Assembly (NCBI GenBank): GCA_027623795.1
Contig: JAQBUX010000005.1
Coordinates: forward strand, 1 to 36,332
Reading direction: 5' to 3'
DNA length: 36,332 nt
From: Chloroflexota bacterium
GTDB lineage: Bacteria; Chloroflexota; Dehalococcoidia; Lucifugimonadales; Lucifugimonadaceae
The notes below the pieces were generated by a model. That model was not told the origin of the DNA. It made no database searches and saw only the letters and a program-made list of their open reading frames with translations. Position 1 is the stretch's first letter. Each line of letters begins with the position of its first letter. This document shows, piece after piece, positions 1,405 to 7,113 of the stretch. The position numbers were made by a program, and so were the translations under genes.

Positions 1405-2751
1405 CTATTCCCTGTAAAAGGTCGTTTGGGGGAAGAAGAACTCCCATGCCCAGTCCCATGACGACTGGAACGGCAACTGCTGCAACACGACGCCGCGAAG
1501 AGGCCCATCGATGGCAGCGCCGAGCACGGTGTCCCAGGCGCTGCCGGTCTCGGCGTCTGTGACCCGGTCGACACCGGCGGCCTCGAAGGTCAGGACCTCC
1601 GGCAGATCGACACTTGTGTCGTGTGCGGGCGACGCCGGACGGCGCAGGTAGACGTTGATCGACCTGGTCTCGGGGTTCACGAACACGCCGACCGGAAACT
1701 CGCCGACAAACTCGTTAATTACTTCTTCGCGCGACGCAACGCTGTAACGAAAACCCTGGGCTTCATCTACGAGGGCGACCCCGATTACAAACTCCTCATT
1801 GAGGCGTTGCGGACGGTAGCGGACATCGTCGATCGGTTGTTCGGATTCGAGGACCGTAGTGGCCGGGTGTTCCGCCAGCCACGTTCCCCACGGGACCACA
1901 TTCGACGGTATCTGCGTGAGCGCCTTGCCCTTCAGGTCGCCAAACAGGGCTGTCCCCCACGGCTGCGACCATACGCTGTTCGTCTGGTGGTCCCACCAGG
2001 TCATGGCGTTACGAAATAACGCTCCGTTGTTGCCAAAGCGAAGGGTCGCCCCGTCCAACCTCCGGTCATGCACGAGACCGGTGAAACAAAGTGGTCACCA
2101 CGAAACGAGTATGGGCACGCCTCCCAGCGTGTCGTTGGCCATCTCCCTGAACCGCATCAGGCCGATGGGATAGGCCCTCGCCTCGCCGTCGATCTCCACG
2201 CCCAACACCAGCTCTTCCGGCGTGAGCTGTATCTGCAATTCGTCAGGCATTCGGATACGCGGAACGTAAACCGGCGTTATCGAGTCCCTGGGAACACCGG
2301 GACGGTACTGGCCGGCTCCGATCTCGCGGTCGCCCTCGGGCTGGAAAGGATCGAAAAGATCAACGACGTTCTCGCTGTTTATGACCAGCCCTCCGCCCCC
2401 TTCCCCGCGTGGTTCCGGGGGTCTGTACACGGGAGTGGGCGTTGGCGTCCGTCCCCGCCTCGGCGGGATCGGTGTGCCTGTCGCCGCGGGCACGGATGTA
2501 GGAGGCGACACCTGGACCAGTGGGTCGACGCCGGGCTGCTGTTGCGGTGCAGGCGTCGACACGGGCAGGGGGATGGGTGGTACGACCTCAGTTGGCGGCG
2601 CGACGGAGATGTCTCGCGCCGATGTGCCAGCTACCGGGCCGGAAGCACTCGAACAGGCTGCGGCGATTGTCACGACAACGCTCGCGATCAGCGCGAGCGC
2701 TGCCATCGACCGTCTTGGGCCACCGATCCGTATCGTTTTGTAACCCTCCAT
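1405..2751 (-). CDS. DUF3179 family lipoprotein with in-frame TGA at codon 219 (candidate selenocysteine); 448 codons if read through
   Basis: Two ORFs in the track (2095..2751 and 1405..2073) are in the same frame, separated by TGA 2097-2095 plus PLCFTGL. Readthrough gives ...RFREMANDTLGGVPILVSW-[TGA]-PLCFTGLVHDRRLDGATLRFGNNGALFRNAMTWWDHQTNSVWSQPWGTALFGDLKGKALTQIPSNVVPWGTWLAEHPATTVLESE..., matching the DUF3179 pattern GGRPVxVTYCPLCGTxVxFDRRVDGxxLxFGxSGxLYxSxxxMYDxxTxSLWSQ as recalled. N-terminal lipobox-like IAAACSS. Confidence 0.85.
2062..2081 (-). promoter_or_regulatory. Candidate bacterial SECIS hairpin
   Basis: mRNA sense: UGA-CCACUUUGUUUCA-CCGGUC-UCGUGCAU-GACCGG. Perfect 6-bp stem, 8-nt loop containing GU; stem starts 13 nt and loop 19 nt after the UGA. 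Confidence 0.65.
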
Positions 2752-2964: not shown

Positions 2965-3384
2965 GTGGCAAAGCCGGAATCAGGGACACCTCGATTGCGC
3001 TGGAAGCGGACGGGATCACATACGGCGATGGCCATGGTGGCCATTCTGGCGGTCTTGACGACGATCGCGGGGTCCGCGCTCGACCACCATTTTGCTGAGC
3101 GTCAGGCCGCGCACGGGCATGTGTTCCTGAACCAGGTGGCTATCGAGCACAGCCACTCCTCTGGCGACGGGCACGATCACGCCGCGGGCGTGATCGTGGC
3201 GTCCGGCGTCGTCGCTACCGGCGACATTGACGCCACCGGCGTCGCAATAGACGGCGTTGCGCCGCCAACCACGGCCCTTACAGGCGACGGCGATGGTGGA
3301 CTTCGGCTTGTCGGCGAAGTCGCCCACGACGACGCACCTCCGGGACTCGTGGCGCCTCCACGGGCGAGGCCGCCGATCGTATAG
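2965..3384 (+). CDS. Small His-rich single-TM protein, first gene of the copper-type cluster
   Basis: GTG-start ORF with TM (MAMVAILAVLTTIAGSAL), then DHHFAER...HGHVFLNQVAIEHSHSSGDGHDHA. No family recognised. Confidence 0.5.
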   Translation: MAKPESGTPRLRWKRTGSHTAMAMVAILAVLTTIAGSALDHHFAERQAAHGHVFLNQVAIEHSHSSGDGHDHAAGVIVASGVVATGDIDATGVAIDGVAPPTTALTGDGDGGLRLVGEVAHDDAPPGLVAPPRARPPIV

Positions 3385-4516: not shown

Positions 4517-4822
4517 ATGCGCAACGGCACACCGACCGGGAGTACTGCGGCTGCTGAGGCAACCGGGGCGGGGGAGCGCTTCGAGTTGCCGCGGCGTTCG
4601 TTTCGATTGCACAAGGCACATGACGGGATGCGCCTGCTCTCGGCCGGCGTGCCGGCCATCTTGCTTCATGGCGCCGGTGGCGTCGGAGGATGGGTCGATG
4701 AACTCATAACCTTCGGTCTGCTGGGAGGGCTGGTCATCGGGCTTGTCCTGCTGTCATTCCGCGGAGCCAGAAACAAGAACAAGCGACGGAATCGCCGTGA
4801 CAAGGGTCGTTCCCGACGTTGA
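4517..4822 (+). CDS. Small membrane protein with basic tail
   Basis: ATG 4 nt after the previous stop; one TM (ELITFGLLGGLVIGLVLLSF) followed by RGARNKNKRRNRRDKGRSRR. Stop overlaps the next start (TTGA). Confidence 0.55.
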   Translation: MRNGTPTGSTAAAEATGAGERFELPRRSFRLHKAHDGMRLLSAGVPAILLHGAGGVGGWVDELITFGLLGGLVIGLVLLSFRGARNKNKRRNRRDKGRSRR

Positions 4823-7113
4823 CCGAACAGAGATCGAAGAAACGCTTGCTGCCGTGGTCCGTTGCGGTTCTCGCCGCGCTGGCCCTGCTACTGATCTGGC
4901 CGCGGGGCGATGCGGCCGCACACGCAAACCTCAGCAGGGCTGAACCAGCCCCGAACTCGGAGTTGCCCCAGTCGCCCGAACGCGTCGTCCTCTGGTTCTC
5001 CGAGGCTATCGAGCCGGGGCTAGAAGACGTCAGGGTCCTCAACTCACTGGGCGACCGTGTCGACAACGACGACGCGGGCGTGGAGGGCGACCCGGCGGAG
5101 ATCGCCTTCGTCACGTTGCCCTCGCTCGAAAACGGCACCTACACCGTCTCCTGGGCGAACGTTTCGACGGTGGACGGCCACCGGGTGCGGGGGTCCTTCC
5201 TGTTTTCCGTGGGGGAGCCGATCTCTGGCGTCGTCGACCTCCCATCGCAACCCACGATCCCCAATTCGCAGGAGCCGTACCTCCGCTGGCTCGTGCTACT
5301 CGGAAGCCTGTCGGTCGCCGGGGGCCTCGTGTTGGAGGTGGCCGTTTGGCGGCCCGCGTTCCATCGGGCCGGAATCGGGTTGTCTCCGGGCCGCGTGTCT
5401 CGTCGGGTCGGATGGCTGCATCTCGGCGGGATGCTGGTCCTCGGATTCGCCTCGGTGGGACAGTTGTTGTCACAGTCGGCGTCGACCTTCGAGATTTCGT
5501 GGTTCGATGCGCTCGGCGGTCCGGTAAGTGACACTCTTGGCACCGATTGGGGCCGATCATGGTTATGGCGGTCCGGGGTGTTCCTGGCCCTGTCTGTGAT
5601 TCTTATTGCCCGCTACATGCCCCGGAGGCCGTCCAACGACGATCAGGCGGCACCCGGGATCGCCCGGGTCGACTACCGGGCCTTTGCGGCCCTTGCCCTC
5701 GCTTTTCTGTTGCTTGTTCCGATAACGCTCGTCAGTCATGCGGGCGCCACGCCGGAGCTGGCGTTTCCGGCGCAGGTGTCTGACTACCTGCACCTGATTG
5801 GCGCGGCCATCTGGGCCGGTGGCCTTTTCCACCTTGCGCTCGCCGTACTCCCCGGGCTGCATGGCATGGAGGCGGGAGACCGAAGGGCGTTCCTCGCCGA
5901 GGCGATTCCGAGGTTCTCCGTCATGGCTATTCTCGGAGCTGCGGTCCTCGGCGTCTCCGGGCTCTATAGCGCCTGGGCGCAGGTCACCACGATCCCGTCG
6001 CTCGCCGTCCCATACGGAATCACCCTGATCGTCAAAACAGCGGTGATCGTTCCGCTGCTTGCGCTTGCGATCGCAAACCACAGGTGGATACGGCGAAGGC
6101 TGGCGAAAGAGGACAGAGCCGGCCGATGGCTCGCCCGAACCGTGGCAGGCGAGGCGGCCATCGCTGTCGCGGTCCTGCTGCTTGCGGGCTTTATGACAAG
6201 CATGGAGCCTGCGCGCCAGGTTGCCGCACGGGAGGGCAGGGGGCTGCCGAGTGGGTTTGTCGACGACACGATCTCCGAGAACATTTCGATCACCGTGAGC
6301 GTGGAGCCTGCCAAAACCGGGCGTAATGACGTGAAGGTGTCGTTAGCGGACCGTCGCGGTGGCCCCGTCACCGATGCGACCGATGTGCGGGTGCGCCTCA
6401 GCTTCCTGGAGGATGACCTCGGTGAGCTGCCCATGCCGCTCGAGAACGCGGGCGATGGTGTCTGGGTTCTGCCCGAGGCCGTGATCGCTCTCGTCGGCGT
6501 GTGGCAGATCGAGGCGGATGTAACCCGTCTGAGCGGGTTTGACGGCCGTGCAGCATTTCGATTTGAAGTACTTGCTGGCGCCGGCTCGGACAGCGACGCC
6601 ATAAGGCCGGACCGCGATCTCGGTCGGGCGCTGCTCGGCGCGGAGATCGCCTTTATTGGCGTCGTGTTGCTCGCCGTCGGCGTCCCACTCGGCGGCTGGT
6701 ATGAGCGCCGGGGGGCCGCGTTTATGGCCCCCGGAACGGCGGCAGGGGTTGTCGGAGCTGGCCTTATCGTCTGGGTGCAGTTCCTCGCGCCGGTCCGAAT
6801 CGAGCAACTGACAAACCCGTTTGTGCCGACGGAGGAGTCGATCGCGATTGGCCGGACGGCCTACAACTCGGTGTGCAGTTCGTGCCACGGCGAGAGCGGA
6901 ACGGGCGATGGTCCGGCCGCCGGTCCTCTCTACCCGCCCCCGGCAAGCCTGCCGGTCCACGTCCCTTTGCACACACAGGGCGAGTTGTTCCAGATCATCC
7001 AGAACGGAGTGGCCGGCACGGCCATGGAACCGCTGTCCGACGCCCTCAGCGATGACGAGGCATGGCATCTCATCAACTACGTCCGGACACTCGGAGATAC
7101 GGGTATTCGCTGA
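4819..7113 (+). CDS. CopC-CopD-YtkA-like-cytochrome c fusion protein
   Basis: CopC-like AHANLSRAEPAPNSELPQSPERVVLWFSEAIEPG...; CopD-like multi-TM region (HLIGAAIWAGGLFHLALAVL); extracytoplasmic beta domain (SVEPAKTGRNDVKVSLADRRGG...); C-terminal cytochrome c (CSSCHG...LYPPPASL...GTAMEPLSDALSDDEAWHLINYVRTL). TTG start overlaps the preceding stop. Confidence 0.88.
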   Translation: MTEQRSKKRLLPWSVAVLAALALLLIWPRGDAAAHANLSRAEPAPNSELPQSPERVVLWFSEAIEPGLEDVRVLNSLGDRVDNDDAGVEGDPAEIAFVTLPSLENGTYTVSWANVSTVDGHRVRGSFLFSVGEPISGVVDLPSQPTIPNSQEPYLRWLVLLGSLSVAGGLVLEVAVWRPAFHRAGIGLSPGRVSRRVGWLHLGGMLVLGFASVGQLLSQSASTFEISWFDALGGPVSDTLGTDWGRSWLWRSGVFLALSVILIARYMPRRPSNDDQAAPGIARVDYRAFAALALAFLLLVPITLVSHAGATPELAFPAQVSDYLHLIGAAIWAGGLFHLALAVLPGLHGMEAGDRRAFLAEAIPRFSVMAILGAAVLGVSGLYSAWAQVTTIPSLAVPYGITLIVKTAVIVPLLALAIANHRWIRRRLAKEDRAGRWLARTVAGEAAIAVAVLLLAGFMTSMEPARQVAAREGRGLPSGFVDDTISENISITVSVEPAKTGRNDVKVSLADRRGGPVTDATDVRVRLSFLEDDLGELPMPLENAGDGVWVLPEAVIALVGVWQIEADVTRLSGFDGRAAFRFEVLAGAGSDSDAIRPDRDLGRALLGAEIAFIGVVLLAVGVPLGGWYERRGAAFMAPGTAAGVVGAGLIVWVQFLAPVRIEQLTNPFVPTEESIAIGRTAYNSVCSSCHGESGTGDGPAAGPLYPPPASLPVHVPLHTQGELFQIIQNGVAGTAMEPLSDALSDDEAWHLINYVRTLGDTGIR

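Follow-up and report, generated by a model that had tools for sequence, protein, structure and literature searches.

The analysed window, a stretch of 36,332 nucleotides of contig JAQBUX010000005.1 (assembly GCA_027623795.1) from a marine SAR202 bacterium (Chloroflexota), carries on its minus strand a DUF3179 gene in which a single frame comprises 218 codons, a TGA at 2097-2095, a further 229 codons and a closing TAG. The coordinates, frame and codon counts given for 2751-1405 in a preliminary description of this DNA were confirmed base by base, and the readthrough translation around the TGA is ...GGVPILVSW-U-PLCFTGLVHDRRLDG.... The features of the locus are as follows:

1405..2751, minus strand: predicted selenocysteine (Sec)-containing DUF3179 gene, from ATG at 2751 to TAG at 1407-1405, 448 residues, predicted Sec219
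2653..2751, minus strand: signal peptide predicted by eye, with a lipobox-like AAAC (Cys33) at its end
1837..2289, minus strand: first half of the DUF3179 domain, with UxxC (Pfam match)
2095..2097, minus strand: predicted Sec codon, an in-frame TGA where CPLC has its first Cys (alignment)
2086..2097, minus strand: UPLC (UxxC) motif (alignment)
2062..2081, minus strand: bacterial SECIS-like hairpin, with a 6-bp stem (2081-2076 with 2067-2062) and loop 2075-2068, UCGUGCAU
1423..1839, minus strand: second half of the DUF3179 domain, an internal repeat in which the motif is lost

The protein matched Pfam DUF3179 (PF11376) with an E value of 1.1e-55 and 189.6 bits (cut-off 27), and no NCBIfam model match was obtained. 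In an alignment of the readthrough product with sampled DUF3179 homologues, the motif column held either Cys or TGA, with the exception of one gene of the same genome (C103) that has Ala, which agreed with the earlier proposal that the TGA falls on the first Cys of CPLC and leaves UPLC. Compared with its relatives, the window gene encodes a protein that stays conserved after the TGA, and its frame is open before and after that codon. A TGA joining two open stretches of more than 100 codons occurred at six places in the window, the predicted Sec codon being one of them.

The source assembly (2.95 Mb, 357 contigs, 83% complete) contained about ten DUF3179 genes, five of which have TGA at the motif (C142, the window gene, along with C70, C25, C239 and C203), while Cys occupies this position in two genes on C159, in C46 and in a tandem twin on C25. 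Tandem DUF3179 arrays mixing Sec and Cys types in the order U-C or C-C-U were found at this C25 locus (L009) and also at L117, L134, L136 and L141. The preliminary description had pointed to selABCD as the machinery to look for, and this held in part: a tRNA-Sec with anticodon TCA, SelB (316 bits) and SelA (520 bits) were present, and SelD gave no match over the cut-off in the 83%-complete assembly. Incompleteness is the best account of this absence, since SelD, itself TGA-containing, was present in all seven genomes of the same genus. SelD with one in-frame TGA was also seen in nearly all related genomes (e.g. L198-L209), and its occurrence across the order suggests that SAR202 SelD is probably a selenoprotein. 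A different kind of TGA was observed in the Cys-type paralogue on C46 (L011, at about nt 1916), where a conserved-Trp TGG has become TGA 69 codons past the motif; it was rejected as a further Sec codon because that column is Trp, and is a nonsense mutation or an assembly error, so not every in-frame TGA in this genome encodes Sec.

DUF3179 was detected in 34 of 60 relatives' genomes, in many cases with one TGA. The TGA stood exactly in the motif column in 63 distinct sequences drawn from related genomes and the source genome itself. When named genomes were scanned with the window-type alignment, 67 loci were recovered, all with the motif TGA in at least one copy and one of them (L196) apparently frame-broken. 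Nearly all belonged to Chloroflexota (SAR202/Dehalococcoidia, Anaerolineae and Caldilineae), together with single records labelled Armatimonadetes and Proteobacteria; the locus nearest to the window gene was L131, at 82-83% identity. Among 150 genomes spread evenly over the phylum, most DUF3179 genes were free of any stop, which argues that the TGA is no general artefact. SelA was found in 49 of the 60 relatives; of the eleven that lacked it, ten also lacked DUF3179, and the remaining one (G029) is 82% complete. Under stricter filters tRNA-Sec was found in 42 of the 60, and a few TGA-bearing genomes (e.g. G020, G029 and G038) gave no tRNA-Sec match under these filters, which may reflect incompleteness or the filtering itself. 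In a tree of 157 proteins, built quickly without a mixture model from a sample leaning to SAR202 and the window clade, the Sec/Cys state changed only five times, suggesting that Sec is old and stable in these proteins.

In the cultured SAR202 strain Candidatus Lucifugimonas marina JH1073, whose genome (CP046147.1) is complete, at least four DUF3179 genes contain a TGA, and SelA, SelD and tRNA-Sec are also present. In L150 (at about nt 3178) and in L119, from JH1073, a second TGA occupies the position of a conserved Gly, eight codons ahead of the Sec TGA (VG*LPVLVSW*PIC), in a frame that is otherwise open; this may be a second Sec, decay or a sequencing error. In several Anaerolineae-type loci the Sec DUF3179 gene is followed by an ORF of about 158-161 aa with no Pfam match (L166:4070-4552, L180:4078-4554, L188:4118-4591 and L195:4079-4552).

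Downstream of the UGA, on the minus strand, CCGGUC (2081-2076) pairs with GACCGG (2067-2062) around the loop UCGUGCAU. With positions numbered ungapped from the U of UGA, the spacing to this 6-bp stem is 13 nt and the loop GU lies at nt 25-26, as had been described. Taken by itself, the folding energy of the window hairpin was ordinary (z = -0.81, with 36 of 200 shuffles folding equally well); single-sequence folding was therefore rejected as evidence for the hairpin, and the case rests on comparison. A test in which the stem position was left free was weak per sequence (median p 0.15), so that fixed geometries and group means were used instead. Three geometries were recognized: A, that of the window clade, in which nt 17-22 pair with 31-36; B, in which nt 17-22 pair with 30-35; and C, in which nt 19-24 pair with 31-36. 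As these were picked after viewing the Sec sequences, the Cys genes scored in the same geometries are the fair control. At least five of the six pairs were present in 120 of 121 distinct Sec 60-mers versus 3 of 41 Cys 60-mers. All six pairs were present in 86% of the 121 distinct Sec sequences versus 3% expected from synonymous codon resampling, a contrast inflated by shared ancestry, which the resampling ignores; the resampled Sec genes never exceeded 8%, and the Cys genes showed no excess (2% observed, 2% expected).

Shared ancestry explains neither the double changes in the stem nor the comparison of Sec and Cys twins. Stem pairs in geometries B and C covary, with both partners changing: pair 18-34 of geometry B, for instance, is TA, GC, CG or AT depending on the sequence. 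The peptide TGLVHDRR is encoded by 63 Sec genes of the window clade with nearly identical stem codons, whereas five Cys twins encode it with different codons that break the stem. This twin test is the strongest evidence for the hairpin because the protein is identical while the RNA differs. The comparative evidence that the hairpin is conserved at the RNA level beyond what the protein demands is overwhelming, and the combination of TGA and conserved hairpin recurs in more than 100 related genes.

Gene 2751-1405 is therefore best read, with a probability of roughly 94%, as encoding an exported DUF3179 selenoprotein with SECIS-directed Sec219. Co-translational Sec insertion, as put forward in the preliminary description, is supported by the motif column, the machinery and the recurrent TGA with its hairpin. 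According to this model, SelB would bind the hairpin just downstream of the UGA during translation and deliver Sec-tRNA-Sec, the UGA would be read as Sec219, and the full 448-residue protein with UPLC would be made and then exported; the conserved codon, the RNA hairpin and the presence of most of the machinery were observed, and we infer insertion itself, export and chemistry.

Two other accounts of the TGA were weighed against Sec insertion. A nonsense mutation or base-call error in a Cys codon, leaving a pseudogene or an assembly artefact, is conceivable in a 357-contig assembly, and the TGG-to-TGA change in C46 indicates that such events happen; it is nevertheless very improbable here, given that the same codon occurs in more than 100 genes from independent assemblies, including complete genomes, and that the open frame and conserved protein continue past it. 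Reassignment of TGA to Trp or Cys throughout the genome would favour a full-length product, as any form of readthrough does, but is more improbable still: the motif column is Cys rather than Trp, TGA appears at that column and almost nowhere else in the sampled DUF3179 domains, only genes with the TGA retain the hairpin, and TGA still terminates genes in this genome, as it does after the C25 genes.

Contrary to the preliminary description, which knew of no described Sec DUF3179, the family has already been reported: DUF3179 (PF11376, UxxC/T) is listed as a predicted selenoprotein family in reviews of 2022 (PMC9312934) and 2026 (PMC13188914), and the former credits it to Zhang and Gladyshev 2007, from a deltaproteobacterial symbiont of Olavius algarvensis. 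The window gene thus adds one more gene to a family already catalogued as containing Sec, and shares with it the Pfam domain and the Sec within UxxC (here UPLC). Compared through the review listings, it differs in its Chloroflexota hosts (SAR202 and Anaerolineae relatives), and also in the several Sec copies per genome and the Sec/Cys tandem twins. Text searches found no Chloroflexi in PMC9312934 and neither Chloroflexota nor SAR202 in PMC13188914, and a search of open-access papers for selenocysteine or selenoproteins in SAR202, Chloroflexi or Chloroflexota returned no title on the subject. Like the E. coli fdhF element and the published consensus for bacterial SECIS (bSECIS), the hairpin lies in the coding region right after the UGA and its loop has G followed by U or G; the UGA-to-loop distance of 19 nt falls inside the published range of 16-37 nt. 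It departs from the consensus in that the loop G of the window clade is at position 3, one off unless U23-A29 pairs; three related geometries occur among the DUF3179 paralogues.

AlphaFold2 modelled the domain with a pLDDT of 94 (96 for the half domain) as a beta-rich repeat in which UxxC sits between two strands. UxxC is shared with thioredoxin-fold selenoproteins, but the predicted DUF3179 fold is mostly beta strand and its UxxC is not at a helix start, so that a thioredoxin-fold oxidoreductase was rejected; there was no thioredoxin-family Pfam match among the 67 members. Of the "classic redox selenoprotein arrangement" proposed earlier, the UxxC therefore stands, while the redox class is inferential and the predicted fold is other than thioredoxin. 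Sequence searches found no solved relatives and Foldseek no solved structure below E 0.001. The best Foldseek hits of the half domain were the Rieske structures 5bok, 3c0d and 3gce (probability 0.84-0.96, E 0.06-0.2). Compared by eye between L015 and a Rieske protein in L210, DUF3179 has CPxC where Rieske [2Fe-2S] domains have CPxH, and the HE-to-CPxC spacing in Cys members is 17 residues versus 18 for CxHE-to-CPxH. The Rieske cluster ligands CxH and CxxH were not found, as the only invariant Cys in the family are those of C/UPxC and the first-loop Cys is missing; profile comparison with two Rieske proteins of the source genome gave no support for kinship. A Rieske-like fold for the half domain is a weak lead.

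The most likely role, at about even odds, is a redox function at the cell surface in which the UxxC pair carries out selenol/thiol chemistry, with Sec in place of the reactive Cys of the Cys paralogues. Alternatively, Sec may be inserted but UPxC may bind a metal, copper or another, instead of acting as a redox pair, a reading that is possible but on the unlikely side. CPxC is known as a metal-binding motif, and the least noisy Foldseek hits were Rieske iron-sulphur domains, although no hit reached E 0.001 or better, the first Cys ligand of Rieske domains is missing and the profiles indicate no kinship. A CopC-CopD-cytochrome c fusion gene (4819-7113, plus strand) lies near the selenoprotein gene and reads away from it, making a copper-handling link possible, but flanking genes vary among the scanned loci. 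No common redox partner gene was found across the scanned neighbourhoods, which included isocitrate/isopropylmalate dehydrogenase in three loci and histidine kinase or short-chain dehydrogenase in others. Overall, surface redox was judged to rank first and metal binding next.

As far as shown by the open-access literature, two points are new: the expansion of paralogues in SAR202, seen in a cultured strain as well, and the test on Sec/Cys twins. The tandem twins amount to a natural experiment, with one peptide encoded both with and without a SECIS. No word starting with "selen" occurs in the cultivation paper of Candidatus Lucifugimonas marina JH1073, and since this cultured strain carries several such genes, the Sec prediction is directly testable. 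Gene calling with table 11 splits these genes, so that estimates of how much selenium SAR202, a major deep-ocean clade, requires are likely too low. More speculatively, and with rather long odds, SAR202 and related Chloroflexota may have expanded a set of surface Sec DUF3179 lipoproteins on a Rieske-like sandwich in which the CPxH loop became UPxC, giving a new selenium site, redox or metal-binding, on a fold other than thioredoxin; if true, this would represent a new type of selenium site in an abundant deep-ocean clade.
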